NCBI GenBank assembly: GCA_002281535.1
Contig: NCGD01000004.1
Coordinates: 1 to 64,000 of the forward strand
DNA: 64,000 bases
DNA from: Sphingomonas sp. 28-63-12
GTDB lineage: Bacteria > Pseudomonadota > Alphaproteobacteria > Sphingomonadales > Sphingomonadaceae
Reading direction: 5' to 3'
The translations under genes and the position numbers were made by a program. Below are positions 1 through 14,491 of this stretch, one piece after another (position 1 is the stretch's first letter; each line of letters starts with the position of its first letter). Below the pieces are notes generated by a model. It did not search any database. It saw nothing but the letters and a program-made list of their open reading frames with translations, and was not told where the DNA came from.

Positions 1-384
1 GGTGAACTGGGTCGCCATGAACGGCAGAAAGAATGGATCGGGCGGGGAATCGGTGCGGTGCAGGATCGCCACCATTGGGCCGGCCACCAGCAGGATCGGC
101 ACCAGAAAGAACCCGATCCGGCCGACCTTTTTGTGCAAGACGGTGTTGCCCGATCGCACCAGCAGCACCTGACCGACCAGCAGGACCAGCCACAGACTGA
201 AGGCGACAGCGTGCACGTGCGTGTACCAAGCGTAAGTGAACGGGTTCGCGCTCGACACTGTCGCCATGTCATAGCCGAAACCGCCAGCGATCACCGCGAA
301 GATGATTGCTGTGCATAGGACCACGGCCAGCCGATCGATGGTGGAAGGGGACAAAATGGACGGGCTTGATCGCCTTTCTCCCAT
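1..384 (-). CDS. Membrane protein, N-terminal part only (runs off the window)
   Basis: The reading frame opens at ATG 384-382 on the minus strand and stays open to the window edge, giving 128 residues without a stop. The protein starts MGERRSSPSILSPSTID and has hydrophobic segments around residues 18-40, 53-75 and 88-108. Between them lie histidines (YTHVHAVAF) and a basic HKKVGRIG turn, a pattern seen in uncharacterised multi-span membrane proteins with a cytochrome b561- or DUF2306-like look. No clear Shine-Dalgarno precedes the start, so an internal start is possible. Function unknown; the membrane location is well supported by composition. Confidence 0.6.
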   Translation of the reverse strand, partial: MGERRSSPSILSPSTIDRLAVVLCTAIIFAVIAGGFGYDMATVSSANPFTYAWYTHVHAVAFSLWLVLLVGQVLLVRSGNTVLHKKVGRIGFFLVPILLVAGPMVAILHRTDSPPDPFFLPFMATQFT

Positions 385-465
385 GGCCGAGACTAGGGGA
401 GATGCCGACCTGCTCGGCTCGTCCCCCCGTTATCAGGACGTTGGGGCATTGGGCAGCGGCAGCCA

Positions 466-1410
466 ATGGACAATTTTGAGTCGATCGTTACGGTGCCGTC
501 GGTGGATGCTTCGCTAGCCTGGGATGACGATTTCGACGTGGCGTATCGCTCGGCCGATGCGATTCTGGCGCATCCCCGGTTCGCAGACGCCCGGCTCGCC
601 TATTTCGACCAGCTCGACCGCGTCTATGGCGAGAATCCGTTCCTCAACAAGCTGATGATGCAGGCGGGCCGCATGATGCTGTTCTTCCTGATCATTTGTC
701 TTGAAGCGGGCTACCGCGAGGAGGATCGCGCCAGCTGGCCGACGCTGGCTAATATCTTGCGGATGCTGAAACCGATGGGCGTCGCCAGCGAAGGCCATGT
801 CAGCCAGCTGATCGGGCGGCTGGTGCATGTAGGATTTCTGAGCACGCGGCCGAGCCCCGTTGACGCGCGCGTGCGCCTGCTGGGGCCCACACCGGCAATG
901 CTGGCGCATGATCAGGATTGGCTGATCGCGCATTACGCGCCGCTTGCGACCCTATATGGTTCGGCGAGTTATAGCCTGCCGATGTCCAGGAATGGCGCGT
1001 TTCAGATTGCCCAACGCGGCATCGCGGCGCAGGCCTTTGCCAAGCTCGCGGCCCCCCTGCTCGACAACCCGATCATCCTATTCTTCGGCGTGCACGATGC
1101 GGCCTTCCTGATCCTGACCACGCTGGCGGGCGACGCCTCGCGCGCCAATAGCGATAGCGCGACGGTGCCCTATGCGGCATTGGCGCGCCGCTTTTCGGTG
1201 TCGCGCACGCACGTCCGGCGCATTCTTGCCGAAGCGCAGGCGAACGGATGGGTTCAGCTGGCGGGCGCCCGCGAGCGGAGTGTGGTGTTGCAACCGCCTC
1301 TGTTGCAGGCGCTCGACAGGTTCATCGCCGAAGCAATGTCGAACCATGATCGCACAGGTCGTGCGGCCGAGCGCCTGCTGCTGGCTGCGTCTGACCGGGC
1401 AACCAATTGA
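466..1410 (+). CDS. Winged-helix transcriptional regulator-like protein
   Basis: A 314-residue soluble protein. Residues about 90-140 (SWPTLANILRMLKPMG, then a GHVSQLIGRLVHVGFLS stretch) resemble a MarR/PadR-type winged helix. A second helix-turn-helix near residues 238-265 (YAALARRFSVSRTHVRRIL) resembles the Crp-type DNA-reading helix. Two HTH-like regions in one chain are unusual, and one may be structural. It lies directly upstream of an MFS transporter and an APC permease on the same strand with a 135-bp gap, so it may control them; that is inference. I do not recognise the exact family. Confidence 0.7.
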   Translation: MDNFESIVTVPSVDASLAWDDDFDVAYRSADAILAHPRFADARLAYFDQLDRVYGENPFLNKLMMQAGRMMLFFLIICLEAGYREEDRASWPTLANILRMLKPMGVASEGHVSQLIGRLVHVGFLSTRPSPVDARVRLLGPTPAMLAHDQDWLIAHYAPLATLYGSASYSLPMSRNGAFQIAQRGIAAQAFAKLAAPLLDNPIILFFGVHDAAFLILTTLAGDASRANSDSATVPYAALARRFSVSRTHVRRILAEAQANGWVQLAGARERSVVLQPPLLQALDRFIAEAMSNHDRTGRAAERLLLAASDRATN

Positions 1411-1545
1411 CCGTCACACGCTTCAGATTGCCGTCGTCCCGCAGCAGTTATTTGGGCAGGCAACAAATACCCAAAATTGTCCATTCGCTAATGCGCAACT
1501 TTATCCCAGACTGCCCCCGAAACGATGTGCAGGGGGTTCAGCCAA

Positions 1546-2877
1546 ATGGCGGACGCAGGGACCAGATTGGAACGGCGTGCTATCACTAAGATCAGCTGGC
1601 GCCTACTGCCTCTGCTGGGCGCCTGTTACTTGGTAGCAATAATCGATCGCGGCAACGTATCCTTCGCATCGGTATCGATGAACGCCGAGCTAAAGTTCAG
1701 CGAAGCCGTTTATGGGCTGGGTGTCGCGTGCTTCTTCATCAGCTATGCGCTGTTCGAAGTACCGTCGAATTTGCTGCTCAACCGGTTCGGTGCGCGGCGC
1801 TGGCTGGCGCGGATCATGGTCACCTGGGGCATCGTTTCGATGGCGATGGTGTTTGTCCGGACGCCTTGGGAGTTTTATGGCCTGCGGTTCCTGCTGGGGA
1901 TGGCAGAGGCAGGGTTCTTCCCCGGTGTCACGCATTATGTGTCGGAATGGATGCCGGCGCATCAACGAGGGCGGGCGATCAGCCGCTTTTACATCGCCAG
2001 CGCCTTGGCCTTGGTGGCGCTTGGAGCCTCGGCGCCGCCGCTGCTCGGCCTGCATGGGCTGGCGGGGCTTTCAGGCTGGCAATGGTTGTTCATCGTTCAG
2101 GGCCTTCCCGCCGTGCTGCTCGGCGTCGCCTTGTTGTTTGCGCTTCCGGACCGTTACAGTGAAGCTGCCTGGCTTGAGCCTGAGGAGAAGGCGTGGCTTG
2201 ACCGCGAGATGGCACTAGGAACCGCTGCGACTGGTGCCGCGCCGATTGGGATCGGCGGCGCGCTGCTCCAGCCGATCGTCCTGGTCGCTGGCACGGCCCT
2301 GGCGCTCAACTTCGCCGTGGGCAGCGCCATCGGCTTTTCGCTGCCCAAATTGATGACCGATCAGATGCATTGGTCGATCGCGCAAGCCGGAAAAATGACG
2401 GTTGTGTCGGGCGTGCTGGTTGGGGTGGCGATGTTGATCGCCGGGGTCGTCTCCGATCGAATGGCCCGGCCATCCAGGCTTGTCGCGATCCTGATGCTGG
2501 TAACGGCCGCTGGGGGCATGATGATTCTGTTTGGTGGCACAACGATGATCGCGGCCGCGGGCGGCGTGATCTTCACGGTGGCCGGTCAAGTGGCAGGACT
2601 CGTGATACTCATCACGCTGACCCGCTTTATCCATCCTACCGCCCGGGCGGCCGGAATCGCCATGAGCAACACGCTTGGACAAATCGGCGCGGCAATCGGA
2701 CCTGCCCTTTGGGGTTTAGCCGCCAGCGCTACGGGCAGCTTCTCGCTCGGGCTCCTCATCGCATCGGTCGTGATGGCTTTTGCCGCGCTGATCGCGTGGT
2801 CGATCGAGCTTGTGACGGCACGCAAGGCACCCTCGCCCGTGCTTTCCTCAATCCGGCCAACCGCGCACCAGCATTGA
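1546..2877 (+). CDS. MFS transporter, anion:cation symporter (ACS)-like
   Basis: A 443-residue protein with about 12 hydrophobic segments. The first helix ends AIIDRGNVSFASVSMN and the loop after helix 2 carries NRFGARRWLARIM, matching the major facilitator signature; the phthalate/tartrate/hydroxyphenylacetate (ACS) group has this N-terminus. I chose ATG 1546 over the ATG at 1525 because an AGGGGG ribosome-binding site lies at 1531-1536. The APC permease begins 11 bp after its stop with a Shine-Dalgarno overlapping the stop region, so the two are probably co-transcribed. The likely substrate is an organic acid anion, not determinable from sequence. Confidence 0.88.
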   Translation: MADAGTRLERRAITKISWRLLPLLGACYLVAIIDRGNVSFASVSMNAELKFSEAVYGLGVACFFISYALFEVPSNLLLNRFGARRWLARIMVTWGIVSMAMVFVRTPWEFYGLRFLLGMAEAGFFPGVTHYVSEWMPAHQRGRAISRFYIASALALVALGASAPPLLGLHGLAGLSGWQWLFIVQGLPAVLLGVALLFALPDRYSEAAWLEPEEKAWLDREMALGTAATGAAPIGIGGALLQPIVLVAGTALALNFAVGSAIGFSLPKLMTDQMHWSIAQAGKMTVVSGVLVGVAMLIAGVVSDRMARPSRLVAILMLVTAAGGMMILFGGTTMIAAAGGVIFTVAGQVAGLVILITLTRFIHPTARAAGIAMSNTLGQIGAAIGPALWGLAASATGSFSLGLLIASVVMAFAALIAWSIELVTARKAPSPVLSSIRPTAHQH

Positions 2878-2888
2878 AGGAATTTCAG

Positions 2889-4316
2889 ATGACGGATGCG
2901 AGCACCCCACCGAAGCTGAAGCGGGAAATGTCGGGCATTGGCGGCATGATCATTACCCTGACCAATCTTTCGCCGAGCATTGGCGTTTTTATCGTCGCGC
3001 CCGTCCTGATCCAGCAGTCAGGCACCTTCGTCATCACCGCGTGCCTGCTGGCGGTCCTGCTCGGCTGCATCGTGGCTGGCATTTATGCTGAGTTGGGGTC
3101 CGCCTTTCCCCATGCCGGGGGCGACTATGTGCTGGTAGGTAACACATTGGGCCCAACGGCGCGCTTTGCCAGCCTCGCCGGCATGCTCCTCCTGGTGCCC
3201 GTAGCGCTGGCGCTGTCCGCGCTGGGTGTGGCCGATTTCCTGAAGGTGATCGCGCCTTTCGTTCAGCCCATACCCTGTGCCCTTGCCTGCATCATTCTGG
3301 TTACGGCGATGGCTGCGCTCAGCATCCGGATGAACGCCTGGATCACGGGTCTCTTTCTGGCAATCGAGATCGCAGCGGTGGTCGCCACGGGGGCGCTCGG
3401 CGTCCTACACCCCCACAACGACTTGTTTCAGGCCATCCTCCACCCGGTCATGGCGTCGTCGCAGGGCGGCCTGCAGGCTACACCGGTACTGGCGATGGCA
3501 CTTGCCGGTAGCGCCGCAATCTTCGCACTCAACGGCTATGGCGGGGCAGTGATCTTCGGTGAAGAGGTCGTGGGCGCACGTCAAAAGCTGGTGTGGATAA
3601 TTTACGGCGTGCTATTTCTGGGCGCTGCGACGATCATCCCGCCCTTGATGGGCGTGATCATTGGCGCGCCCGACCTCGCGGCGCTGAGCGCGTCGGCCAC
3701 GCCGTTGCAGGACTTCATCGTCGCGGCAGGCGGTCAACAGGTCGCCAACGTGATCAGCCTCGGCGTCGCAGTTGCGGTGTTCAACGCCATGATCGCGATC
3801 GCGCTGATGGGCGGGCGCATCCTCTATGCCGCCGCGCGCGAGAATGCCTTCCATGCCAGCCTGAACGGTATCCTGTCGAAGGTTCATCCAGGATTTGGGT
3901 CACCCTGGGTCGCGACGCTGGCGATCGGCTTCGCTGGTCTCCTGCTGTGCTTCGTGCCGCTGTCCGTCCTTGTCATGATCAGCGGCTCCAACGTGGCTAT
4001 GGGCTACGGCCTTGTCGCCTTGAGCTTGATTGTTGGCCGCAGGACGGGCGCGACGGCGAAGTCCGCGTGGGCCATGCCCCTGCATCCGATCGGGCCGGTC
4101 ATTGTCATCCTTACCGTGCTCTGGCTGTTGTTCACGGCGCTGAGCGACGAGCAGACAGGCCGCCCCGGCGTTGTGGCGATCCTCGGCATTTTGGCCGTAG
4201 GGGCGCTCTATTACCAGCTCGTCGTGCGTCGCGGGGCTGCCTGGGCGCATCATGACCCGGAGGAGGAAGAGGACATCATCGCGTCCCCACTTACAGCGCA
4301 GAGCTTGGGGCTTTGA
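2889..4316 (+). CDS. APC superfamily amino-acid/polyamine permease
   Basis: A 475-residue integral membrane protein with about 12 hydrophobic segments. The first helix (GGMIITLTNLSPSIGVF) and the AELGSAFPHAGGDYVLV segment correspond to helix 1 and the conserved helix 2-3 region of amino acid-polyamine-organocation permeases. The start MTDASTPPKLKREM is preceded by GAAGGA at 2875-2880. The open frame extends far upstream but that part overlaps the MFS gene and is out of frame with it. The C-terminal tail is acidic (PEEEEDI). Being paired with an MFS symporter suggests uptake of a catabolic substrate such as an amine or amino acid; inference. Confidence 0.88.
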   Translation: MTDASTPPKLKREMSGIGGMIITLTNLSPSIGVFIVAPVLIQQSGTFVITACLLAVLLGCIVAGIYAELGSAFPHAGGDYVLVGNTLGPTARFASLAGMLLLVPVALALSALGVADFLKVIAPFVQPIPCALACIILVTAMAALSIRMNAWITGLFLAIEIAAVVATGALGVLHPHNDLFQAILHPVMASSQGGLQATPVLAMALAGSAAIFALNGYGGAVIFGEEVVGARQKLVWIIYGVLFLGAATIIPPLMGVIIGAPDLAALSASATPLQDFIVAAGGQQVANVISLGVAVAVFNAMIAIALMGGRILYAAARENAFHASLNGILSKVHPGFGSPWVATLAIGFAGLLLCFVPLSVLVMISGSNVAMGYGLVALSLIVGRRTGATAKSAWAMPLHPIGPVIVILTVLWLLFTALSDEQTGRPGVVAILGILAVGALYYQLVVRRGAAWAHHDPEEEEDIIASPLTAQSLGL

Positions 4317-4905
4317 GACCGGGGGAAGCGTCAGGACGCTGGGCCAATCGTCAGCGTTGTCAGGCTGATGTGAGAACCGATTCGCGGGCGTGACATCTCT
4401 ATGAGTGAAGTCAAATTTCTACGCCATTTTCGAGAAAAGGCTGTGTGGCGGCAAATGCGGCGATTGTCGGCTGATTGAGAACACCCCCTTATACTCCCAC
4501 CAAGCAACAGAAGTCGCTGGTCAGGCTTCGCCAGCCCGTCAGTTTTCGGGAAGCCCGCCTGCGGCGCGGAATGGCGGCGATTGTGGGGCGCAGCTATCGT
4601 CTCGAGGCGCAACAACGAATGCCTGTTTACCTCAATCCGTCGCTCCAAAGCCGCCGGTCCGGTTTCCACCCCAATCGGGCGTCCGCAGTTAAGTCGACGT
4701 GCGGTCCTTCGCGGAGGTGGCCTGACGGCGCTGGGAGGCGAACGAGACGCTAGTCGCCCATTCGAGGTCGATCTATTCCAGCCCTTTTGAGCCCATATCC
4801 GCGTTGACCAGCGGTCCCCGAATGTGCGAGTGAGCTCTCCATTCAGGATAGAGCTGTAAAACGAAGTGTAAAACGCACCTCGTATAACAGGCTAAGTCCT
4901 TGAAA
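4317..4905 (+). other. Intergenic stretch without a convincing gene
   Basis: Between the permease and the tRNA-Gly fragment there are about 590 bases with only short overlapping frames on both strands, none with a good ribosome-binding site, recognisable domain or consistent codon use. A TATAAC hexamer at 4883-4888 lies where a -10 box for the tRNA would be expected, about 19 bp before the tRNA start. It may therefore be the original promoter of tRNA-Gly before the island inserted. Confidence 0.4.
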
Positions 4906-4946
4906 TGCGGGTGTAGCTCAATGGCAGAGCAGAAGCTTCCCAAGCT
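4906..4946 (+). repeat. Left attachment site (attL): 5' fragment of tRNA-Gly(CCC)
   Basis: These 41 bases are identical to 14451-14491. They reproduce the acceptor 5' strand, D arm and anticodon stem-loop of tRNA-Gly(CCC), starting GCGGGTG at 4907 and ending just after the anticodon loop (TTCCCAA GCT). From 4947 the sequence diverges and no T arm or CCA follows, so this copy is a truncated tRNA. With the intact copy at the other end it marks the island boundaries. The shared block implies a crossover in or near the anticodon stem-loop. Confidence 0.9.
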
Positions 4947-5052
4947 GGCCACAATCACGCATTTTCGCGCCTTTCGCTGTCAATTGGGCGAAAATTCGAT
5001 CTAATCTAATCAATAGCTTAGTGACCGGGTGTCAACCGTTTCAGGTGCTGCA

Positions 5053-5070
5053 CCCTTCCGATTGGAAGGG
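5053..5070. repeat. Inverted GGAAGGG box pair upstream of the orphan primase-tail gene
   Basis: CCCTTCC at 5053-5059 and GGAAGGG at 5064-5070 form a perfect hairpin (9-bp arms CACCCTTCC/GGAAGGGTG, 4-nt loop). It is the same box that recurs in zone A of the repeat region at 5650-5930, so the box family brackets the gene at 5119-5598. Confidence 0.75.
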
Positions 5071-5118
5071 TGGCGGCGGTGCCCCGATGGGGACGGCGGG
5101 CACGGCGGGTTCGGCGTG

Positions 5119-5598
5119 ATGACAGCAGAGTTGCAGCGCCGCGCCGCGCGCGGACTGACCGATCTGGAATTCGCCGAATTCTATCGGCACCGATTGGTGC
5201 GGACAGTTGGCGGGCGGGAGCGATCGGTTGAGATCATGGCAGCCTATGCCAAGTGGGCGGTCTGTCGCGGGGCCGGTGGAATCAGCTTCCGCATGTTGCG
5301 GCGGTTTCTCTCTGATCGCGGGCACCGGCCTTTCACTTCGAATGGCGCTTGGTATGCCGATCTGAGAATTGCCGCCGACGGCGAAACTGTTGTCGATCCG
5401 GGGCCATCGCGCCCGATGCACGCTGAGTATCTCGACGACCTGGCAGCTCGAATTGATGCAATCTCGGACAGTTTGGAACGGTTGCGTTGTCTAGTCAGTG
5501 ACGCGATCGAGCATTCCGATTTTTCGTCGGCCTTGCCCGATGTTGCCGCGCAGCATGCGCCTACTGCAAAGCAGGAGGGTGCAAATGGCGAGCATTGA
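5119..5598 (+). CDS. Orphan protein resembling the C-terminal winged helix of phage/satellite primases
   Basis: A protein of about 159 residues if started at ATG 5119; the frame is open from GTG 5029, but that extension runs through an inverted repeat. The core (FYRHRL, then AAYAKWAVCRGAGG, ISFRMLRRFLSDRG, WYADLRI) follows the pattern of the winged-helix tail of D5/P4-alpha-type primase-helicases: Y-x-x-W-C, F-x-x-x-L, G, then W/Y-x-G-I. No primase or helicase motifs are present, so it is a stand-alone tail domain. In P4-type proteins that tail binds origin repeats, and here the gene is followed immediately by a dense repeat field. Assignment is by pattern only. Confidence 0.5.
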   Translation: MTAELQRRAARGLTDLEFAEFYRHRLVRTVGGRERSVEIMAAYAKWAVCRGAGGISFRMLRRFLSDRGHRPFTSNGAWYADLRIAADGETVVDPGPSRPMHAEYLDDLAARIDAISDSLERLRCLVSDAIEHSDFSSALPDVAAQHAPTAKQEGANGEH

Positions 5599-5640
5599 TC
5601 GCGCCCGCCGCCGCCGCCCGCCTTCGCGTTGGCGCGTCCC
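5585..5640 (+). other. Strong ribosome-binding site and ATG leading into the repeat field
   Basis: AGGAGGG at 5573-5579 is placed ideally before ATG 5585, overlapping the end of the upstream gene. The frame that follows (MASIDRARRRRPPSRWRVPG) soon enters the GGAAGGGT boxes and stays open to 6535, but it reads as repeat translation rather than a folded protein. It may be the surviving start of a lost gene. I do not call the 317-codon frame a gene. Confidence 0.35.
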
Positions 5641-5649
5641 TGGACTGTC

Positions 5650-5930
5650 ACCCTTCCACTGTGGAAGGGTCGCGGAAGGGTTGCCGGAAGGGAGAAAGCG
5701 CAGAATTGCGCGCGTCTGGAAGGGTTGGAAGGGTTTCCAATATGTTTGCCCGCATGGGCATGCGCAGGCGCGCATGTGTGCGATGAAAAATATACGCAAA
5801 CGCTTCCAACCCTTCCATATTCTTAGATCAACATTAGAATATATAATTAAACCATTAGGTTATTCACTTTTGGAGCGCGGAAGGGTGGCCTCACCACCCT
5901 TCCGCCACCCTTCCAGCGTTGGAAGGGTGG
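5650..5930. repeat. Repeat zone A: GGAAGGG/CCCTTCC boxes around an AT-rich core
   Basis: Eleven copies of GGAAGGG or its complement lie here (near 5652, 5663, 5674, 5686, 5718, 5727, 5810, 5879, 5897, 5908, 5921), in both orientations; several pairs form hairpins and one pair is a direct 9-bp tandem. Between the boxes at 5810 and 5879 is a strikingly AT-rich stretch (about 5817-5875) that contains TTATTCACT, one base from a DnaA-box consensus TTATNCACA. Clustered short boxes plus an AT-rich segment is the usual layout of a replication origin with iterons. Confidence 0.6.
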
Positions 5931-5994
5931 CGCCCGATCCTTGGGGCGGCGCGAGCCGGTTAGTCCTTTGCCGCCAGTGGCGGGCGATAGTGCG

Positions 5995-6312
5995 TAACCT
6001 GCCGTGGCCGATTGCGGGTACGGCAGGTTACGGCGAGTTGCCTTCAACCTGCCGTACCGGGCGTGTCGGTGGCGCTGATCTGCCTGATATTCGGGCAAGT
6101 CATGGACGCTCGGGCAATGGTGACGGCGGGTTTAGGGGGTGCGCACGGCGGGTTGAGCGCCAACCTGCCGTCCTGATTTGGCTAGGACTTTGGCGGCTTA
6201 CGGCAGGTTACGGCGGGTTCGGCAGGTTATCGCGATGTTTCGCCCTTATGCGCGCTAGCGAGCGGGCGCGCGTGAGCATCACACTCCTAACCTGCCGTCC
6301 TGCCGTCCTGCC
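5995..6312. repeat. Repeat zone B: CGGCAGGTTA/TAACCTGCCG boxes
   Basis: A second, unrelated box family follows zone A. Copies of CGGCAGGTTA(CGG) or its complement occur near 5996, 6020, 6046, 6162, 6201, 6221 and 6288; the last runs into CTGCCGTC repeats. Orientation alternates. No copy of the zone A box occurs here, so the zones do not intermix. Confidence 0.6.
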
Positions 6313-6436
6313 GTGTCGCCGTGTCTCGGTGCCCAGCTCTATCCTCAAATCTCTCAACCAATCTTCAAAAGAAGAATTGAGATTAAGGTTTGCTTTGCGT
6401 GTTGAGCGGCGGCGCGGCGCGGCGACAGGGCATGAA

Positions 6437-6690
6437 ACTCAACTGTCCGGCCAACTGTCCGGTGAGGTGTCCGGTGGCCATGCCAGGCAGGTGAAGCGGG
6501 TAGCTTCCGAGAGGCAAAAAGGGGGTTTCGGATAGTCTATCGGACGGTTGCCGGACAGTTGTTCGGACAGTTGAGAAGCCCGGATTTGTGCGGGTTTGGC
6601 GATGGTCCGGACAGTTGAGCGCAAAGTCCGTCAACCACATGTGCGCACACACGTACTTACCCAACTTAGAAACAACTGTCCGGTGTCGGA
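6437..6690. repeat. Repeat zone C: CCGGACAGTT/AACTGTCCGG boxes
   Basis: A third box family, CCGGACAGTT or its complement with one-base variants, occurs near 6440, 6453, 6468, 6541, 6551, 6564, 6606 and 6674. It is separated from zone B by an AT-richer stretch (about 6340-6395) that contains an imperfect hairpin (CAATCTTC/GAAGAATTG). As in zone A, boxes flank an AT-rich segment. Confidence 0.6.
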
Positions 6691-6710
6691 CCAAGAAAGG
6701 GTTAGTGTTG

Positions 6711-7040
6711 ATGAGTTTTGAGAAATTGAAGCGCAGCTCGGTCGCAATGATCGTCAGACCGGGGGGGGTGGTAAAACTCCAAAAGATTGAACCCTCCCAG
6801 ACCGCTGTCCCTCCCATTCAGGGATTTTTTCCTCGCTGGTCGAATTTTGGGGGGAGGGGCTTGGTCTGTGGGGCGATTTGCGTCGCGCTGGCGGCGAAGT
6901 GGCGCGCGGCGATGCCTTTGCGCTGGTTGACGTCCTGCTCAGCGCTGGCGGGCATTGGCTGGGGTGCCGGGGTGGTGGACAGGCTGGCGGCTGATCGGTC
7001 GATTTCCGCGCCCATTTATTTCCGCGCGGTGATGCCATGA
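6711..7040 (+). CDS. Doubtful ORF before the Nu1-like gene
   Basis: A 109-codon frame starting MSFEKLKRSSVAMIV, ending in an ATGA overlap with the next gene. It contains a run of eight G residues and changes character half way. From about 6872 the +2 frame gives a better protein-like stretch (GDLRRAGGEVARGDAFALVD) that ends at a stop near 6994. The segment may be a frameshifted remnant, or this frame may be spurious. No family recognised. Confidence 0.25.
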   Translation: MSFEKLKRSSVAMIVRPGGVVKLQKIEPSQTAVPPIQGFFPRWSNFGGRGLVCGAICVALAAKWRAAMPLRWLTSCSALAGIGWGAGVVDRLAADRSISAPIYFRAVMP

Positions 7041-7291
7041 CGATCGGCTCCCTTGCCGACCTGGGCAAGCTGCCCGGCATGCCTTCCCTGCCCAGCCTGC
7101 AGCGCTTCATTGCGGCGCGGCCCGACTTCCCGGTGATCGAGCGCGGGCGCTACGGCAAGGCTTATCAGTTTGACCTGGACGCGGCGGCAAAGTTCGTTCG
7201 TGAGCATTGGCGCGATGGTCGGTTGCTAGATCCCGATGCTGAGATTTTGCGGCAGTTGCCGCTCCCCATGGAGGCAGGCAATGCCCGATAA
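7037..7291 (+). CDS. Nu1-like small DNA-binding protein (possible small terminase)
   Basis: 84 residues. The stretch SLQRFIAARPDFPVIERGRYGKAYQFDLDAA has the layout of the lambda gpNu1-type winged helix: a helix ending in PVI, a basic G-R-x-G-K wing, a Y-x-F-D-L strand, then a helix. In phages this domain recognises the packaging site. It lies at the start of the structural gene block, where a small terminase is expected, but no large terminase follows. A general excisionase-like regulator is the alternative. Confidence 0.5.
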   Translation: MTIGSLADLGKLPGMPSLPSLQRFIAARPDFPVIERGRYGKAYQFDLDAAAKFVREHWRDGRLLDPDAEILRQLPLPMEAGNAR

Positions 7292-7514
7292 CGTCGAGAG
7301 CGTCGATATGATCGTCACGCACTGCCGCGCCGTCAACGTGCGGGCCGCGAGCATGTACGTCGAACGGGGCGTCGAGCCGATCGACGCGGCGATGGGCAGC
7401 GCCCTTGCCACCATCGATATCTTGAGGGCGGCGGGATTGCCGGCAATCGATGCGGTTGAGTGGATACGATCGTTCGCGGATATGATCGAGCGCGACATAT
7501 TGGCGGAGGGATAA
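7281..7514 (+). CDS. Small hypothetical phage-island protein
   Basis: 77 residues from ATG 7281, overlapping the previous stop by 11 bases. Alternating helices (NVESVDMIVTHCRAVNVRAA, then EPIDAAMGSALATIDIL) suggest an all-alpha protein. No motif recognised. The tight overlap with both neighbours supports translation within one operon. Confidence 0.55.
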   Translation: MPDNVESVDMIVTHCRAVNVRAASMYVERGVEPIDAAMGSALATIDILRAAGLPAIDAVEWIRSFADMIERDILAEG

Positions 7515-7515
7515 G

Positions 7516-7698
7516 GTGGCGACGCAATACGAACGCCCTGGCGGCGAAAATCAGTCAGCGTCTTTGGAGGAGATTTTAGAAAGCCCCATGGTGGTGCGCG
7601 AATTTGACAATGCCTTGGCTGGGCATCTTACGCGGGCGCAACGTCGCGAATTCTGGCGCGCGCTGCAGGCCGCAAACTTGATCGTTTTTCACGCATGA
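7516..7698 (+). CDS. Small hypothetical phage-island protein
   Basis: 60 residues from a GTG start directly after the previous stop. The sequence contains LEEILESPMVVREF and LTRAQRREFWRALQAANL, predicted helical and charged. No family recognised. Supported by operon position and by overlap with the next gene (ATG 7695 inside its last codons). Confidence 0.5.
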   Translation: MATQYERPGGENQSASLEEILESPMVVREFDNALAGHLTRAQRREFWRALQAANLIVFHA

Positions 7699-8108
7699 TG
7701 CCCCGCGCCGTGATTGGGCCGGTTATGGCAATGGCGCGGCCATCGCGGCCGCCTGCAGAATCTGATCTAGTGCGAAGGGCGGCGGGTGAGTTGAGCGCCG
7801 ATCTGTCAGCATCGCGCAAGGCTGGCATGATCGCTGCCCGTGTCGCCGAGGCGGTGATTGCCGATGTCGATCGGAGCGATGTAACCCATATCGGCACGAT
7901 GCTCAAAGCGCTGGTAAATGATCCGGTTGCCCAGCTGGCAATCGACCCTGCAATTGCAACGGCTGAATTGCTCGCAGTGTTTCGTCACGATCGGATGGCC
8001 GCGCGGGGCTGGCGATATCCCTCGCCAACCGAGGTATCGACTGACCTTTCCCAAGCGCTGGAATCGCTGACCCTGGCCCTTGCCGCGCGGTATCGCCGAT
8101 ACTTGTGA
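7695..8108 (+). CDS. Hypothetical phage-island protein
   Basis: 137 residues, starting MMPRAVIGPVMAMARPSR, overlapping the previous gene by 4 bases. Mostly helical with a C-terminal LTLALAARYRRYL. In a phage operon the position just before the capsid gene is usually held by portal, protease or scaffold, but no such motif (S49/S14 protease, portal) is visible. A strong hairpin follows the stop. Confidence 0.55.
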   Translation: MMPRAVIGPVMAMARPSRPPAESDLVRRAAGELSADLSASRKAGMIAARVAEAVIADVDRSDVTHIGTMLKALVNDPVAQLAIDPAIATAELLAVFRHDRMAARGWRYPSPTEVSTDLSQALESLTLALAARYRRYL

Positions 8109-8113
8109 GAAAG

Positions 8114-8139
8114 TTGCCGTAAACAGGTGTTTACGGCAA
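8114..8139 (+). terminator. Hairpin between small ORFs and capsid gene
   Basis: A perfect 11-bp stem, TTGCCGTAAAC and its complement, with the loop AGGT, begins 6 bases after the stop at 8108. There is no T-run, so it may act as a partial terminator or a processing site that sets capsid mRNA apart from the upstream genes. Confidence 0.5.
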
Positions 8140-8190
8140 TTCGCCCCGTTCATTGGTTCCTGCGAGAATTCGCCTTGAGGAACCTTTTTT

Positions 8191-9396
8191 ATGCGCAACC
8201 TTCCGATCTTGCTTGCTGCTGCTGCTGCCCCACGGGCGGTGCGTTCTGTACCGATGGCTAACGGAAATGATCATTCCACGTTGGTGCAACAGATCAATGC
8301 CGCCTTTACCGCTTTCAAATCTGATCAGAACGCCCGCATGAGCAAGTTGGAGGCTAGCTTTGATCAGCAGGCCGGGGCGCTGGCAGCGGCGCGCCTTGGC
8401 GGCGGCAGCCAACAGCAGCCCCAACGAGTAGGCCTTGCTAGCGAGGTTCGGCGCGAGGTCATGGCACAAATGCTGGGGCTTCCGTCCGCCGCTCGCCAGA
8501 TGGAAAGCGGGTCTGGTCCCGACGGTGGTTACACGATCCCTGTCCAGATTGATCAAACCATCCTACCCCTGCTCCGCACGCTTTCTCCTCTTCGGCAGTG
8601 GGCCACGCTAGCGGCCCTCCCCACTGGTGTCGGTAAATGGCAGAAGATCATCACCAGGATTGGCGGCAAGAGCGCGTGGGCCGGGGAGCTGGACGAACGC
8701 GGTGAAACGGATACGCCTGTGTTGGGTGTCATCGAAATCATGCCTGAAGAATTGATGGCTATGCCGGTGCTCACCAATCACATTTTGGAGGATAGCGGCT
8801 TCGATTTGGAAGCGTTCATTATGGACGATCTGGCCGCTGAAATGTCGCTTGAGGAAGGCAATGCATTTGTGAACGGCAACGGCGTAAAGAAGCCCCGGGG
8901 CTTTCTCACCCTGCCCACGGCAACGACCGGCGACGCTTCTCGGGCATTCGGTACATTGCAGCATGTTGTCACGGCGGGCAGCGGCGTGATTGCCGATACC
9001 GATCTGCTCAACCTTCTGACGCCATTGCGCGCCGTCTATCGCGGCGGTGGCAGCGTGGGTTGGATTATGAACAGCACGACAGAAGGATATATCCGGTCGC
9101 TGAAGGACGCGCAGGGGCGATTTATCTGGCAGCAGGGGTTGGAAATGGGCGCGCCAAATATGTTGCTTGGCTATCCCGTTGGCATTGATGAAGCCATGCC
9201 CGATATTGCCGCGAATTCGCTGCCAATCGCATTCGGTAACTGGCGGCGCGGGTACGCGATCGTTGACAAGATCGGCATCAAACTCATCCGCGACAACGTG
9301 ACGCGCAAGGGCTGGACGAAGCTCTATTTCTATCGCCGCGTGGGCGGGCATCCGCTCGATACCAACGCGATCAAGCTGCTGAAGATCAAGCCATAA
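8191..9396 (+). CDS. Phage major capsid protein, HK97 gp5 family
   Basis: 401 residues. The N-terminal 25-60 region (TLVQQINAAFTAFKSDQNARMSKLE) is coiled-coil-like, as in the delta domain cleaved from HK97-type capsids. The core follows the family: GGYTIPVQIDQTILPLLR, then LSPLRQWATL near residues 120-145, EELMAMPVLTNHILEDS at the N-arm/P-domain, EGNAFVNGNGVKKPRGFL, a GWIMNSTTEGYIRSLKD strand, and a closing RRVGGHPLDTNAIKLL. GAGGAA near 8176 serves as ribosome-binding site. No head protease gene is present in the island. It builds the icosahedral shell if expressed. Confidence 0.88.
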   Translation: MRNLPILLAAAAAPRAVRSVPMANGNDHSTLVQQINAAFTAFKSDQNARMSKLEASFDQQAGALAAARLGGGSQQQPQRVGLASEVRREVMAQMLGLPSAARQMESGSGPDGGYTIPVQIDQTILPLLRTLSPLRQWATLAALPTGVGKWQKIITRIGGKSAWAGELDERGETDTPVLGVIEIMPEELMAMPVLTNHILEDSGFDLEAFIMDDLAAEMSLEEGNAFVNGNGVKKPRGFLTLPTATTGDASRAFGTLQHVVTAGSGVIADTDLLNLLTPLRAVYRGGGSVGWIMNSTTEGYIRSLKDAQGRFIWQQGLEMGAPNMLLGYPVGIDEAMPDIAANSLPIAFGNWRRGYAIVDKIGIKLIRDNVTRKGWTKLYFYRRVGGHPLDTNAIKLLKIKP

Positions 9397-9461: not shown

Positions 9462-11546
9462 ATGACGGTAATTGCAAGCCTGCTAACCCGGCTGGGTCTG
9501 GAAAGCTCTTCGTTCGTCACTGGCCTGGACAAGGCGCGGGCGGCGGCGCGGCGCGGTTCCAAGGAGATATCTTCCGATTTTACGAAGATGCAGCGCAATA
9601 TCGAGAGCGTCACCAAAGTCCTTTCAGGGTCGCTGGCCACGCTGGGCGCGGGCCTTGCGATCGGCGCGATTAAGGGCGGCATAACCAGCGGCCTGGAATA
9701 TGCGAGCGCGCTGGGCGAGGTGGCGCAGCAGCTTGGCGTTTCCACCCGCGCGCTGCAGGAATACCGCTACGTCGCAACGCAGGTGGGCATCGGGCAGGAT
9801 CAGCTTGACGCCGGGCTTCAGAAATTGACTCGATCGATCGGGCAGGCTGCCAACGGTGCGAAGGTGCAAACCGCCGCGTTCGATGCGCTGGGTGTGTCGA
9901 TCCGCGACCAGAACGGCAATCTCAAAAGCACTGACCAGATACTGTCCGAACTGATCGCTGCATTCAGCCGCATTCCTGATCCGGCGCGGCGGGCCGCGCT
10001 GGAAACGCAATTGTTCGGCAAGGCGGGGCAGCAGCTCGATACGTTGCTTGCCGGTGGTGTCAGCCAGGTGAATAACTTGCGCGATGCGGCTCACCGGCTG
10101 GGCATCGTGCTTAGCTCCGAGCAAATTCAGAAAGCCGATGACGCGGCGGATAAACTGGCGTCGGTCCAACAGGTGATGACCGCCAATATCTCCGCTGTGG
10201 TGGCCGATAATGCAGATGCAATCCTTCGCCTCGCGGATTCATTTGCGACGTTGACTGCCAACGTGCTGGGATCGGTGACGGCGTTCGCCAATTACCGAAA
10301 TGTAAGGGGATTGGCGACGGGCGATATCACCGCCGGACGTGACTTGCTCAAATCGAAATCGGGCCGCGCGGCGCTGGCTGGCTATTACGATCAGCGGCTA
10401 TCAGCAAACACGGCTGCCCGTCGCCAGCCCGGTTTGAGTGCGGCGGAAGCCAAGCGGCTCGATGGGGAAATCGCTCAGGCCAAAAAGCTGCGGGACTTGG
10501 CCATAGCCTATGATGCGCGCAAATCGTCGGCAGAGGCAGCGGTGCCAAAGAGGGTTGGCGGTGGGGGTGGCATCGGCGGCGGTGCCGTTAGAATAGCGGC
10601 CCCGCGCCCGTCACGTCTGGGCAGATCAGCGGTAAAAGAGACTGGGCCGGATTTAGGTAAGCAAGCGCAATCCATTATTGATGGTCTATTCCCCAATGAG
10701 GCCGAACTGCGGCGATTGCAGCAGGATGCAGCAACGCTAGGCGATGCGCTGGCTAAAAAGGTGATCAGCGTGCCCGCTTTCGAAAAGGCGCGGGAGGCGC
10801 TGGCGGCGCAATTGTCACAGACATTGGAGGATATCAAAAACGCCGGCGAAGGCGCGCAACCGCTCGCTTTGATCAGCGGCAATATTGACGGCATCCTGGA
10901 CCGGGAATTGAAACGCTTTGATAAGGCAGCGGACGAAAGCGCCAAAATCCAGAAAAGCAGCGCCGAATCAATCGCCCAAAGCTATGCCGAAATGGCGCAA
11001 AGCGTTGTCGGATCGCTCCAGGGGCTGACATCGTCGATTAAGGGCGGCGACTTCCTCGATATTCTGGGCAGCGTAATCGATGTGATCAGCACGGTTGCCG
11101 GGCAAATTGGCGGTGGTGGTGGGCTGTCCGGTTTGTTCGGTCGCGGATCACGGGTGGAGATACCGACAATAGACGGACTCTCGGGATTGGGGGCAAAGAA
11201 TGCGCCGATCGGCACGCCACCAATTTTTGGCGGGGCGCGGGCCAATGGCGGGCCGGTGCGCCCCGGCATGGCGTATCTGGTGGGTGAACGCGGGCCGGAA
11301 ATTTTCCGCCCCAGCGCCGGGGGCAGTATCATCCCGAACAATCGGCTGAGTGGCGGCATTGGCGGCGGGATTAGCTTTGATCTGCGCGGTGCCGTGGTGA
11401 CCACTGAACTGTATCGCGACATGGAGCGGATCGCCAACGACACGTCTGGCCGCATGGTGCGGGCTGCTGCGCCGAGCATCGCGACGGCGGGTGCTGATGG
11501 GGCGGCGGCGCGGGCGTTGCGGCAGCAATCGCGGGCGCTGGCATGA
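9462..11546 (+). CDS. Phage tail tape-measure-like protein
   Basis: 694 residues. The N-terminus (SLLTRLGLESSSFVTGLDKARAAA) and the segment around residues 85-125 (SALGEVAQQLGVSTRALQEY) are typical of tail length tape-measure proteins. A hydrophobic glycine/alanine stretch lies near residues 48-70 (LSGSLATLGAGLAIGAIKGG). The C-terminal third is glycine-rich with MAYLVGERGPEIFRP near residue 605, a motif common at the end of tape measures. It is short for the family, implying a small tail or loss of the middle. No other tail gene is present except possibly the next ORF. Confidence 0.78.
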   Translation: MTVIASLLTRLGLESSSFVTGLDKARAAARRGSKEISSDFTKMQRNIESVTKVLSGSLATLGAGLAIGAIKGGITSGLEYASALGEVAQQLGVSTRALQEYRYVATQVGIGQDQLDAGLQKLTRSIGQAANGAKVQTAAFDALGVSIRDQNGNLKSTDQILSELIAAFSRIPDPARRAALETQLFGKAGQQLDTLLAGGVSQVNNLRDAAHRLGIVLSSEQIQKADDAADKLASVQQVMTANISAVVADNADAILRLADSFATLTANVLGSVTAFANYRNVRGLATGDITAGRDLLKSKSGRAALAGYYDQRLSANTAARRQPGLSAAEAKRLDGEIAQAKKLRDLAIAYDARKSSAEAAVPKRVGGGGGIGGGAVRIAAPRPSRLGRSAVKETGPDLGKQAQSIIDGLFPNEAELRRLQQDAATLGDALAKKVISVPAFEKAREALAAQLSQTLEDIKNAGEGAQPLALISGNIDGILDRELKRFDKAADESAKIQKSSAESIAQSYAEMAQSVVGSLQGLTSSIKGGDFLDILGSVIDVISTVAGQIGGGGGLSGLFGRGSRVEIPTIDGLSGLGAKNAPIGTPPIFGGARANGGPVRPGMAYLVGERGPEIFRPSAGGSIIPNNRLSGGIGGGISFDLRGAVVTTELYRDMERIANDTSGRMVRAAAPSIATAGADGAAARALRQQSRALA

Positions 11547-12133: not shown

Positions 12134-12472
12134 ATGGGTTTCCAAGCTAAAGCACCACAACCCGATTTTGAAAAGCTTGCGAGCGACTTTTACGATCTAA
12201 CCGTCAAGATCGAGCGCATTAGAGCCCTTGTTGACGTTGTTGATGTTAGCGGGTTGAACCCGCTCGCCAAAGAGCGTGTCGGTTCGCAATCGGATTATCG
12301 GGACTGGTGCAATGCGGCGGCAATTTTGCCGGTGGTGTTGGACGAAGTCGATCAGCTCGCCAAAATGGCGGACGATTATGACACGGCGCTGCATAGCTGT
12401 GTGCCGCGCAAGGTCGATCGCGCAACTCTGGAGCGCCTGGGCTTGGAAGTGCCGGGAGCAAAGGCTGGTTGA
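12134..12472 (+). CDS. Hypothetical phage-island protein
   Basis: 112 residues with a good ribosome-binding site (GAGAGGA at 12120-12126). The protein is helical (DFEKLASDFYDLTVKIERIRAL, then VVLDEVDQLAKMADDYDTAL) and looks like a short coiled-coil bundle. No catalytic motif seen. It follows a divergent control region and precedes the MerR-like regulator. Confidence 0.6.
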   Translation: MGFQAKAPQPDFEKLASDFYDLTVKIERIRALVDVVDVSGLNPLAKERVGSQSDYRDWCNAAAILPVVLDEVDQLAKMADDYDTALHSCVPRKVDRATLERLGLEVPGAKAG

Positions 12473-12488
12473 GGTTGAGTAGCAAGGT

Positions 12489-12546
12489 GCGTGTTATCCC
12501 CCACGCGTCACTTGACAGCGCGACGGCATCGTGGGAGATAACACGC
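12489..12546 (+). promoter_or_regulatory. 16-bp inverted repeat and promoter of the MerR-like gene
   Basis: GCGTGTTATCCCCCAC (12489-12504) and GTGGGAGATAACACGC (12531-12546) are inverted repeats matching at 15 of 16 positions. Between them TTGACA (12512-12517) is a perfect -35, followed after 17-18 bp by GAGATA/AGATAA within the right arm. The arm ends one base before ATG 12547, so transcription would begin at or next to the start codon, predicting a leaderless mRNA. The arms flank and overlap the core promoter, the arrangement of an autoregulated operator. Confidence 0.65.
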
Positions 12547-13125
12547 ATGATAAACCAAGCCCGCCCCAAATTCACATTTCCGATGTTTCAGCCAAAGGAT
12601 TTGGAAGCAATTACTGGCCTTTCGCCAGTGGCTATCCGAGATTGGCGACGGCGGAAGTTACTGAATCCCGATTTGGAAAAGCAGGACGGTGCTTTTCACT
12701 TTTCATCGGTTGCGGAATTTCTGTTGCTCAGGCGGCTTTCAGATCATGGCATAGGGCCAAAGCAAGTTTTCGGATGGAGCACTAGCGCCTCAATCCATTT
12801 GATGCATCACGCCGTCAACGATCGATCAGCTTGGGCGAACGATAATGCTTGGGCACTTTGGTGCGATCGGGAAAAGCGCAACCCTTTGGAGCGGTTTTTC
12901 TACCTCGCGCCTGGCATTGTTTCGATGACCAACGATCCGCTTCGAGTTTTGGAGGGGCACGCGCCGGTCGCGACATTTGTCGATTTATTGCAATTGGGCA
13001 ACGAGTTGCGTGCGGCTATACTTCCTCGCGTCGCTGATGCTTCGATCACAAATTGGCAATATGACGATCATGGCGATTCTGTCGTGGTTACGATTGATGA
13101 CGACGAAGGCGAGTTGGTCGAGTAA
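12547..13125 (+). CDS. MerR-like helix-turn-helix regulator of the island
   Basis: 192 residues. The N-terminal 60 residues (FQPKDLEAITGLSPVAIRDWRRRKLL, then FHFSSVAEFLLLRRLSDHGI) follow the MerR winged-helix pattern: helix-turn-helix, wing, then the I-x-x-L-x-x-x-G helix. The C-terminus is not a metal-binding type and ends in an acidic tail (VVTIDDDEGELVE). I chose ATG 12547 over the frame start at 12469, because the latter would run through the inverted repeat and promoter. It is probably the island's lysogeny-type regulator or integrase activator, acting on its own inverted repeat. Confidence 0.7.
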   Translation: MINQARPKFTFPMFQPKDLEAITGLSPVAIRDWRRRKLLNPDLEKQDGAFHFSSVAEFLLLRRLSDHGIGPKQVFGWSTSASIHLMHHAVNDRSAWANDNAWALWCDREKRNPLERFFYLAPGIVSMTNDPLRVLEGHAPVATFVDLLQLGNELRAAILPRVADASITNWQYDDHGDSVVVTIDDDEGELVE

Positions 13126-13316
13126 TGGCTTCTCGCGCCGCCTATCCAACCGACGCACAGTTGCAACGCGCGATCGGCGCGGCGCGCAAGGTTGGTTTTG
13201 ACGTGGCGGGCGTGTCGATCAGCCGCGAAGGCGAGATTAAGCTATTCGAAGCAAGGGCGCTCTCTGCCCAGCCGAGCGATGAATTTGAGCGGTTGGAAGC
13301 CGCCGGGCTTCTGTGA
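13125..13316 (+). CDS. Small hypothetical protein coupled to the integrase
   Basis: 63 residues (MASRAAYPTDAQLQRAIGAARK...). It overlaps the previous stop and, by GTGA, the integrase start. Proteins with this YPTDAQLxRAIxAARxxG layout commonly precede integrases in alphaproteobacterial prophages, by general recollection. It could be an excisionase-like accessory, but no DNA-binding motif is clear. Confidence 0.6.
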   Translation: MASRAAYPTDAQLQRAIGAARKVGFDVAGVSISREGEIKLFEARALSAQPSDEFERLEAAGLL

Positions 13317-14428
13317 CGCTGCCCGCGATCAAGGGCCTCTACATCACGGGCAACCGCAAGCCCGGCAAGCCGGTGCGCTGGTATGTGTATGCCTGGCGGG
13401 GTGGGCCGCTGATCGCCGCCAAGGTTGGCGGTGCCAAGCCGCGCCTCGATGCCGATATCGTTGAGAAATATCACGCCGCGCTGCAATCAACCCGCAAAGT
13501 GCGGCCCGAATCCTTCGCCAGTCTGATCGCTGATTATCGCCGATCGCCCGAATGGTCTGCACTGGCAACGAGCACCAGGCGCAACTGGTCGATCATTGTC
13601 GATCGGATTGAGGCAAAATGGGGCTCAGTGCCGACCGCGATTTGGAGCGACCCGCGCATGGTGCGCAAGGTGATCGATTGGCGCGATGCTGCGGCAACCC
13701 AGCCGCGCAAGGCCGACAACCAAATCACTGTGCTGCGGCACTTGCTCGAATGGGCGCGCCTGCGGGCGCGGGTGAACGTGAACGTGGCGGCCGGGATCCC
13801 CAAGCTCTATCACGGCGGCGAGCGCGCGGAAATTATCTGGACAGAGGACGAGCTGACACGGCTTGCCGATCACGCCTCTGCCGATGTGATTGACGGGGTA
13901 CGCCTCGCCTGCCTTACCGGGTTGCGCCGCGCCGATCTGGTCGCCTTGACCTGGGCAGAAATTGGCGAGCGGGCAATCGTTCGCAAGGCGCTCAAAAGCA
14001 GCAAGGGCAAGCGTCGGACAGCGACCGTGCCGATTGTGGGCGAGCTGCGCACGTTGCTCGCTATGCTGCGGACGCGGCCACGATCAGCCGGGGTTGAGAC
14101 GGTGCTGGTCAACAGCCACGGACAGCCCTGGACAGGGGACGGCTTTGGCAACAGCGTAATTCGGGCGCGCAATGCGGCCGATATCCGGCATGAGGATGGG
14201 CGGCTTAAGCACCTTCACGATTGCCGGGGCACCTTTGCCACGAAGCTCATGACCGAGCTTGAATGGACCGATGAAAAGATCGCGGCGGCGCTTGCTTGGG
14301 CACCCGATCGCGTCGGGCGAATCCGCTCGGTCTATGTTGACGTTCAGCGTGTCGTGGTGCAGTGGACCGAGCGCAGCGCGGCGGCGGATTGTCAACCAAC
14401 TGTCAACCGACGCGGCGAAACTCTATGA
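13313..14428 (+). CDS. Tyrosine site-specific integrase
   Basis: 371 residues from a GTG start overlapping the preceding gene. The N-terminal part has a SAM-like core-binding domain (ATSTRRNWSIIVDRIEAKWG). The catalytic domain shows the first arginine in CLTGLRRADLVALTW, a KTSKGK-like KSSKGKRR beta turn, H-x-x-R in LHDCRGTFATKL, and the nucleophilic tyrosine in RSVYVDVQR. The first residues (ITGNRKPGKPVRWYVYAWRGG) resemble an arm-binding domain. It ends 23 bp before the intact tRNA-Gly, the expected position for an enzyme that inserts at that gene. The promoter for the restored tRNA may overlap the 3' end of this gene. Confidence 0.9.
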   Translation: MTLPAIKGLYITGNRKPGKPVRWYVYAWRGGPLIAAKVGGAKPRLDADIVEKYHAALQSTRKVRPESFASLIADYRRSPEWSALATSTRRNWSIIVDRIEAKWGSVPTAIWSDPRMVRKVIDWRDAAATQPRKADNQITVLRHLLEWARLRARVNVNVAAGIPKLYHGGERAEIIWTEDELTRLADHASADVIDGVRLACLTGLRRADLVALTWAEIGERAIVRKALKSSKGKRRTATVPIVGELRTLLAMLRTRPRSAGVETVLVNSHGQPWTGDGFGNSVIRARNAADIRHEDGRLKHLHDCRGTFATKLMTELEWTDEKIAAALAWAPDRVGRIRSVYVDVQRVVVQWTERSAAADCQPTVNRRGETL

Positions 14429-14450: not shown

Positions 14451-14491
14451 TGCGGGTGTAGCTCAATGGCAGAGCAGAAGCTTCCCAAGCT
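14451..14491 (+). repeat. Right attachment site (attR) within intact tRNA-Gly(CCC)
   Basis: Identical over 41 bases to 4906-4946. This copy continues into a full T arm and CCA end, so the functional tRNA lies at this end. The element therefore supplied the 5' part of the gene while the 3' part is the original chromosomal sequence, the reverse of the common arrangement. Confidence 0.88.

Follow-up and report, generated by a model that had tools for sequence, protein, structure and literature searches.

Three consecutive origin-like box arrays in a sphingomonad island without a recognised replicase: a putative phage satellite with candidate origins for several helper primases

A 9,545-bp integrated element in a sphingomonad chromosome, referred to here as the island, encloses three consecutive zones of short repeated boxes. 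It lies in a 64,000-nucleotide stretch of DNA from Sphingomonas sp. 28-63-12 (contig NCGD01000004.1, positions 1 to 64,000), the whole of which was analysed and is called the window. From left to right, the island carries a gene for a lone winged-helix protein (the orphan), the block of boxes (zones A, B, and C), small proteins, a capsid gene, a tape measure gene, a weak MerR-like gene, and an integrase gene. The features are as follows, in window positions.

4906-4946 (+): attL, 41 bp that duplicate the 5' half of tRNA-Gly(CCC) together with the preceding base; exact repeat of 14451-14491
5052-5071: head-to-head pair of A boxes (ACCCTTCC, GGAAGGGT) in the leader of the orphan gene
5102-5111: one B-type box upstream of the orphan gene
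5119-5598 (+): orphan gene, 159 aa; the product has a winged helix akin to the C-terminal tail of P4/D5-type primases and, behind it, a further helix at the C terminus (phmmer, aligned tails, model)
5200-5208 (+) and 5465-5473: C-type boxes CGGACAGTT inside the orphan gene, 2 observed against a maximum of 1 in 2000 shuffles
5650-5928: zone A, origin-like cassette; 11 GGAAGGG boxes, alternating purine-pyrimidine tract at 5768-5782, AT-rich core at 5817-5866
5996-6298: zone B, origin-like cassette; 10 boxes with the core GC[AG]GGTT
6347-6396: AT-rich stretch between zones B and C, 30% GC
6439-6683: zone C, origin-like cassette; 6 CGGACAGTT boxes, alternating purine-pyrimidine tract at 6636-6656
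7037-7291 (+): small protein, 84 aa, without a Pfam or PHROG match
7281-7514 (+): small protein common to the sibling islands L198 and L200 (phmmer 7e-11, 2e-8; alignment A4) and, by eye, L218
7695-8108 (+): small protein common to the sibling islands L198, L200, and L218 (phmmer 4e-10, 3e-13; alignment A5)
8191-9396 (+): HK97-type major capsid protein (PF05065, 4e-68)
9462-11546 (+): tail tape measure protein, 694 aa (phrog_10574, 4e-34)
12469-13125 (+): weak MerR-like regulator (PF13411, 3e-4, just under the family cut-off)
13313-14428 (+): tyrosine integrase (PF00589, 2e-8; phrog_1, 9e-26)
14451-14491 (+): attR, overlapping the intact tRNA-Gly(CCC) gene (14452-14525) at the right end of the island

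Among the scanned open reading frames (ORFs) of the island, the recognised phage genes were those of the integrase, the capsid, and the tape measure, and no match to the primase, helicase, terminase, or portal families was found with Pfam and PHROG. The P4-type primase family TIGR01613 also had no match in the genome that harbours the island (3.48 Mb, 94.8% complete). With a size of 9.5 kb, 41-bp attachment repeats, an integrase, and part of the virion genes rather than a full phage set, the element has the general traits of a phage satellite, and the best reading of these sequence matches is that it is a satellite with a capsid, a tape measure, and an integrase and without a recognised replicase.

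The preliminary description of this DNA had proposed that three unrelated box families follow one another without mixing, each in both orientations, and this arrangement was borne out. Within 5599-6720, GGAAGGGT occurs 10 times (mean 0.042 and maximum 2 in 1000 first-order Markov shuffles), ACGGC[AG]GGTT 9 times (0.003 and 1), and CGGACAGTT 6 times (0.007 and 1), and the 62.3 kb outside the zones (1-5000 and 6701-64000) contain them once, not at all, and once, respectively. A scan for dense 8-mers on both strands in 400-bp windows, to which no motif was supplied, reported exactly three clusters in the 64 kb, which are the three zones: 5650-5928 (ACCCTTCC, 10 copies), 5996-6296 (AACCTGCC, 7 copies), and 6440-6680 (CAACTGTC, 6 copies). 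A chance origin of the boxes is ruled out by the shuffle counts, and an origin as tandem repeats or coding sequence was rejected on the basis of their occurrence on both strands and their irregular spacing. Had the boxes been spread over the genome without a link to primases, the origin idea of the preliminary description would have failed; in this genome, which was scanned for the pair patterns of B and C, each of the two patterns occurred twice, all four times inside the zones. Its AT-rich core in zone A (20% GC) and AT-rich stretch between zones B and C were also confirmed. The near-consensus DnaA box that it placed in that core (TTATTCACT at 5860) is at chance level, with 13 matches in the window against 16 expected, and a DnaA-dependent origin was rejected for this reason.

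Arrays of the same box families were found in viral contigs, where many of them adjoin primase genes (loci and genomes are given by L and G numbers where needed). Scans for box pairs gave 79 stretches for A, 13 and 27 for the two B patterns, and 8 for C, and in many of the array-bearing stretches a large gene ends just before the array. Comparison of 15 distinct array-neighbour proteins with Pfam and NCBIfam identified 10 as P4-type primase-helicases (D5_N, DUF5906, Pox_D5, TIGR01613), beside A arrays in L012, L013, L023, L032, L033, L036, L046, and L053 and beside C arrays in L105 and L107; the other five were those of L080 (Prim-Pol plus AAA), L093, L094, L099, and L104. By a purpose-built profile made from 12 primases of a Sphingomonadales family search, a primase was also present in 23 of 40 viral loci with at least three A boxes in 600 bp, in 13 of 22 such loci for B, and in 2 of 4 for C. 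Six viral-contig B loci (L093, L094, L098, L099, L100, L195) had boxes in one orientation only and no primase. A set of 56 primases with distinct tails comprised 24 with an A array, 12 with a B array, 3 with a C array, and 17 with another array or none. In the first three groups, 39 primases in all, the first box follows the stop codon at a distance of 1-125 bp. Because most of the array-bearing primase loci were fetched by box patterns (L010-L109, L173-L196), the existence of arrays there is no evidence in itself; their 3' placement and single orientation were not selected for. In cellular genomes, the B pair pattern was present in 5 of 396, compared with 2 for the reversed control, with arrays only in the genome of the island, G186, and G487.

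The linkage was also seen in a sample chosen independently of boxes, namely the best 14 of 26 places of the Sphingomonadales family search (13 over the cut-off and the next one, with the 12 weaker places omitted). Nine of these 14 primases had a significant array (shuffle p<=0.015) within 400 bp 3' of the gene, compared with none of 10 testable 5' flanks and none of 14 mid-gene pieces, and the arrays belonged to varied box families, with C boxes at L113 and A boxes at L118. An array also lies 3' of the primase gene in three of four named phages: Rhodobacter phage RcapNL, Paracoccus phage vB_PthS_Pthi1, and Microcystis phage Mae-JY28. Alternating purine-pyrimidine tracts are long in many A arrays and in two of the three C arrays, and none of the 12 B arrays exceeded the shuffle level, nor were long tracts found in a low-GC lineage of A arrays; the tract was accordingly rejected as a universal part of the cassettes.

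Box type followed the tail of the primase for two of the three families. In a tree of the tails, box type required 5 changes for A (shuffled mean 18.2) and 3 for B (shuffled mean 11.0), with none of 500 shuffles as low, and the 3 changes for C, on three rows, were uninformative. Among tails less than 80% identical, the nearest neighbour had the same box type in 30 of 34 cases (shuffled mean 17.1; none of 5000 shuffles as high), and the four misses were all three C rows and one A row. The check suggested in the preliminary description, whether box type tracks the primase tail, came out in favour overall and for A and B, while all three C tails missed. These observations bear on the possibility that the boxes are operators, or packaging or partition sites, without any relation to replication. 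Some A boxes could well be regulatory, lying as they do in the leader of the orphan gene, and an island that encodes a capsid needs some packaging signal. Against this, many contigs and some named phages have homologous arrays on the 3' side of a primase-helicase gene, the array type goes with the primase tail in the A and B families, and a single regulator would not need three unrelated box families, so that we give this explanation very little credence.

Several side observations concern such arrays and tails elsewhere. A very small apparent island in G487 (L166:8135-9980) has an integrase, an AlpA-like ORF recognised by eye, and approximately 10 exact B-type boxes; no primase was found in it, and no flanking repeat of at least 13 bp in the stretches compared. 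A 101-kb viral contig (IMGVR_UViG_2627853856_000004) carries an A array behind a primase (L053) and a B array with no primase found nearby (L190), and the L190 stretch has no blastn match to L053. In G465, apparent winged-helix tails of the P4-primase type, read from translations and weak profile hits, stand behind a MUG113/T5orf172 nuclease domain (L172:1761-2420) and behind a Bro-N domain (L172:16406-17296). The layout of the nuclease fusion is like that of the origin-directed nuclease Odn of phage ICP1, and P4-type origins could be its cutting target.

Each zone of the island has one box family in both orientations, and each matches at least one array 3' of a P4-type primase in the same orientation. 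Box positions and strands were compared at a tolerance of 2 bp, with random positions over the same span as controls. Zone A had 8 of 11 boxes in common with the arrays 3' of the A-type primases L043, L020, and L053 (random maximum 6), in zone B 7 of 10 coincided with boxes downstream of primase L187 (random maximum 6), and in zone C 6 of 6 coincided with those of the L105 array (random maximum 4), with identical box spacings of 12, 99, 12, 44, and 66 bp. In reversed orientation, the best partners of each zone reached 4. Sequence comparison with the collected loci at E<=1e-8 matched zone A to 17 of them, of which 15 are 3' of A-type primases, 15 of 15 in the same orientation, and the remaining two (L011, L044) had no primase called. 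Zone B had L187 as its sole match (79% identity over 109 bp), and zone C had L105 as its sole record, together with L233, which comes from that contig as well. No match at this threshold was obtained with three control segments of the window. The match of zone C is to the DNA directly 3' of a primase-helicase gene (L105:1287-2921), with 78% identity over 246 columns (E ~1e-50), and over 300 ungapped positions from the gene end the boxes agree at 89% and the 228 non-box positions at 64%. The 39-kb contig of L105 is temperate-phage-like, its first 19 kb holding an integrase, a DnaG-like primase, and the helicase; the capsid profile had no match in it, which shows little. A segment at 6576-6594 in zone C (AAGCCCGGATTTGTGCGGG), which could form a small hairpin, is kept outside the boxes between the window and L105. 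The suggestion of the preliminary description that three origin cassettes are stacked here thus agrees with matches in spacing, orientation, and sequence, and the identity of the zones as cassettes is well supported by these sequence comparisons, best for zone A, and for zone C through one close match.

A cognate primase directly upstream, a further trait of such cassettes, was not found; only the 159-aa, tail-like orphan precedes zone A. The preliminary description had likened this gene to the winged-helix tail of P4-type primases, and the likeness was upheld. The orphan protein has no Pfam or PHROG match; compared with the tails of primases that own A arrays, its best phmmer E-value was 4.9e-7. 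An AlphaFold model built on 16 sequences (mean predicted local distance difference test score (pLDDT) 85.6, predicted template modelling score (pTM) 0.58) has a winged helix at approximately residues 2-84, followed by a long C-terminal helix at 98-132. The top Foldseek matches of the model were the RFX DNA-binding domain (1dp7, probability 1.00) and full-length AsfvPrimPol (8iqi, 0.99), none with an E-value below 0.001 and without display of the part aligned. The orphan, a tail-like winged helix with an extra C-terminal helix, is probably a dimer.

Orphan genes of the same kind were found at L006, L007, and L144, and in the tail tree these and the orphan of the window form one group (Shimodaira-Hasegawa-like approximate likelihood ratio test (SH-aLRT) 99) apart from the primase tails. 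An A-like array adjoins the orphan gene in all four: GGAAGGGT in the window, GGGAGG in L006, GGAAAGGT in L007, and GGAAGGG in L144. The motif-free scan reports the arrays of the window and L007; those of L006 and L144 were recognised by eye, the latter in an island of degenerate appearance. Because an A-like array adjoins all four genes, we infer that the A family is the one that belongs to the orphan. Searches with the orphan tail gave no match in viral contigs (profile), none among 50,697 phage records and 72,556 plasmid records (tblastn, E<=0.01), and a sole match, the genome of the island, among 142 Alphaproteobacteria genomes.

The orphan gene could be the stump of a primase, and the zones could be dead origins left after three replication modules had been captured in turn and their genes lost; origin swapping is known in satellites, as for RepA and ori of the phage-inducible chromosomal island-like elements (PLE) (PMC8263062). 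Exact boxes, however, make up 10 of 12 exact-plus-one-mismatch sites in zone A, 9 of 11 in zone B, and 6 of 7 in zone C, compared with medians of 0.67, 0.67, and 0.83 in the primase-linked A, B, and C arrays; the zone boxes are no less exact than these, and thus no decay is visible. When 56 primases were compared by tblastn with 4900-8200, 49 rows were obtained at E<=1, 19 of them in the orphan gene (best 2e-6), and none of the 30 rows outside it was better than 0.012, so that zones B and C show no trace of a primase ahead of them. In addition, the orphans group by themselves in the tail tree and have, in the model, a helix added at the C terminus, and two other islands retain different multi-array sets. 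We therefore regard a relic origin as quite improbable.

We consider it fairly likely that the island is a replicase-less satellite that stacks three P4-type origin cassettes, is replicated in trans by several helper primases, and has zone A gated by the orphan. The three cassettes, all in one orientation, would be homologues of the arrays directly 3' of P4-type (D5/SF3) primase-helicase genes, and the excised satellite could be replicated in trans by any helper that supplies an A-, B-, or C-type primase-helicase. The winged-helix tail of the helper enzyme would read the matching boxes, the adjacent AT-rich DNA would be melted, and the island would be copied. The orphan would most likely bind the A-like boxes in its own leader and in zone A, where it may repress or gate that origin and its own gene. 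With three zones, the island would have a broader choice of helpers or could fall back on another origin if one came under attack.

A number of findings weigh against this interpretation. No helper was found: TIGR01613 is absent from the genome of the island, and no phage known to infect the host was tied to the cassettes. Replication could also depend on an island gene that was not recognised as such. The array of L051 fits zone A equally well in reverse. The spacing of the zones was also missing (p>0.05) from a part of the primase-linked arrays: for A from 8 of 24, namely the low-GC lineage (L012, L019, L031, L033, L054, L060) with L046 and L076, for B from 6 of 12, and for C from 2 of 3. 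The identity of zone C draws on one close sequence match. Among the array loci, the profile detected no primase in 17 of 40 with A boxes, 9 of 22 with B boxes, and 2 of 4 with C boxes, several loci being short pieces, and Rhizobium phage RR1-A and 5 of the 14 box-independent primases had no 3' array at p<=0.015. The C pair pattern was found in 6 of 336 genomes, compared with 5 for the reversed control, and four of the six had only two boxes at the site; pairs alone therefore mean little. Finally, the box families of L006 and the boxes of L200 (both described below) were picked by eye and are not reported by the motif-free scan.

It may also be that the arrays act as decoys, drawing off the origin-binding primases of competitors, and that the orphan is a dominant-negative protein at their origins, the island gaining by starving or blocking phages. 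In keeping with this, the orphan keeps the winged helix without a helicase or primase part, and sites of all three box families lie within its gene or close by. Conflict between satellites and phages at origins is known, ICP1 Odn being a nuclease with a RepA-like origin-binding domain (PMC8263062). Boxes alone would suffice for a decoy, yet the zones retain the spacing of primase-linked arrays, the AT-rich core of zone A, and the purine-pyrimidine tracts of zones A and C, and zone C agrees with L105 at 64% of the 228 non-box positions. Moreover, a replicase stands at the same place in the sibling islands. We thus find interference of this kind unlikely and prefer helper-driven replication.

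These siblings, L198 (tRNA-Lys, 46-bp repeats) and L200 (tRNA-Arg, 45-bp repeats), have the capsid and the two small proteins in common with the window. At the place of the orphan and arrays, L198 has a replicase consisting of Prim-Pol plus DUF5906 (L198:11616-13802), with one array (GTCAGTGA) behind it, and L200 has one consisting of AAA_25 plus a weak Toprim (L200:11104-13209), with three CCGGAAAC boxes seen by eye. The presence of quite different replicases at the same place marks this position as a swap point for replication modules. A further relative, L218 (9.7-kb IMG/VR contig), has an integrase, a helix-turn-helix protein, a TerS-like protein, a capsid, and a tape measure, named from reading the translations except for the matched protein, and no array. 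The islands L007 (G186) and L006 (G171) each have an orphan tail, an HK97 capsid, a tape measure, an integrase, and two box families, ACCTTTCC and AACCCGCC in L007 by the motif-free scan and AACTGTTC- and GGGAGG-type boxes in L006. The motif counts for L002, L003, L139, L198, and L200 used motifs chosen after viewing the sequence. Among the loci scanned for arrays, a set that leaves out L001, L137, and L138 and includes 20 loci added later, at least two arrays were present only in the copies of the window, the copies of G186, and L052, where they consist of AT-rich words 5 kb apart.

The capsid profile (A3) matched 146 of 219 family genomes, mostly once each, and is thus not specific; we take the single matches to be gene transfer agents. 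Nineteen regions around such matches contained two sibling islands (L198 and L200) and none with two arrays, and the small-protein profile A4 had no match in viral contigs. At the same tRNA-Gly site, a congener (G707:C31, L230/L231) has a different island of approximately 24 kb with a related integrase; with no primase-profile match and no array in the stretches read, it was rejected as a helper candidate. As for a more general statement, we see about an even chance that a sphingomonad family of capsid-plus-tape-measure satellites has dropped its replicase and stacks the origins of several unrelated phage lineages, each of which could then copy it in trans, with the origins gated by a standalone dimeric tail; this would be a form of origin-of-replication mimicry.

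If true, this would be the replication counterpart of the mimicry of origins of transfer (oriT), with multiple foreign origins and no recognised replicase, in an element class whose members, as described in two papers, have their own origin and, in PLE, also their own initiator (PMC10803314, PMC8263062). The helper range would be predictable from sequence, since the arrays would name the primase families able to serve the satellite. The tendency of arrays to stand 3' of primase genes, with boxes that follow the tail, offers an easy means of searching for the origins of the many phages with P4-type primases and opens the pairing of winged-helix tail and box to binding assays.

Among known systems, the arrays 3' of the P4-type primases of RcapNL, vB_PthS_Pthi1, and Mae-JY28 likewise consist of boxes in two orientations, presumably read by the tail, whereas the island has three different cassettes in a row with only a lone tail-like protein ahead of them. 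Phage P4 has alpha together with ori and crr, and the island, searched with TIGR01613, Pfam, and PHROG, differs from a P4-like satellite in having no alpha primase-helicase gene. Capsid-forming phage-inducible chromosomal islands (cf-PICIs) are defined by their own terminase, portal, and replication (pri-rep) genes, with more head genes than here. As in a cf-PICI, the element is an integrated island with its own capsid (PF05065), but no terminase, portal, or pri-rep was found among the scanned ORFs. Putative tape measure genes are carried by some cf-PICIs, and a tape measure protein by PLE11 (PMC12987554). The PLE of Vibrio cholerae, which are satellites of ICP1, are likewise small and have a modular origin read by the DNA-binding domain of the initiator; they encode their own RepA and a cognate origin, in contrast to the three origin types and no recognised initiator of the island (PMC8263062). 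A RepA_N initiator, which in PLE goes with an iteron origin, was absent from the general Pfam and PHROG matches of the island ORFs, with no search aimed at RepA_N made. Archaeal pRN1 has a putative origin directly 3' of a PrimPol-SF3-winged-helix gene, and this origin still works at another place on the plasmid; it is a stem-loop rather than a box array, and gene and origin are on one replicon (PMC4234260). Satellites replicating from their own origin are described in the paper on phage-inducible chromosomal minimalist islands (PMC10803314), and the use of several helpers is described in general terms in a P4 paper and a review (PMC8628076; PMC11389934). A literature search, in which most subscription journals and preprints were outside the range, brought up no account of a satellite that stacks several foreign origins of replication. 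The closest analogy is to staphylococcal plasmids that stack two or three oriT mimics of different subtypes and are served in trans by several helpers (PMC8136818). Like these plasmids, the island would be a dependent element with captured origins for several helpers; the oriT mimics are transfer origins recognised by SmpO-type proteins of conjugative plasmids, whereas the origins of the island would be of the replication type and served by primase-helicases (PMC8136818).
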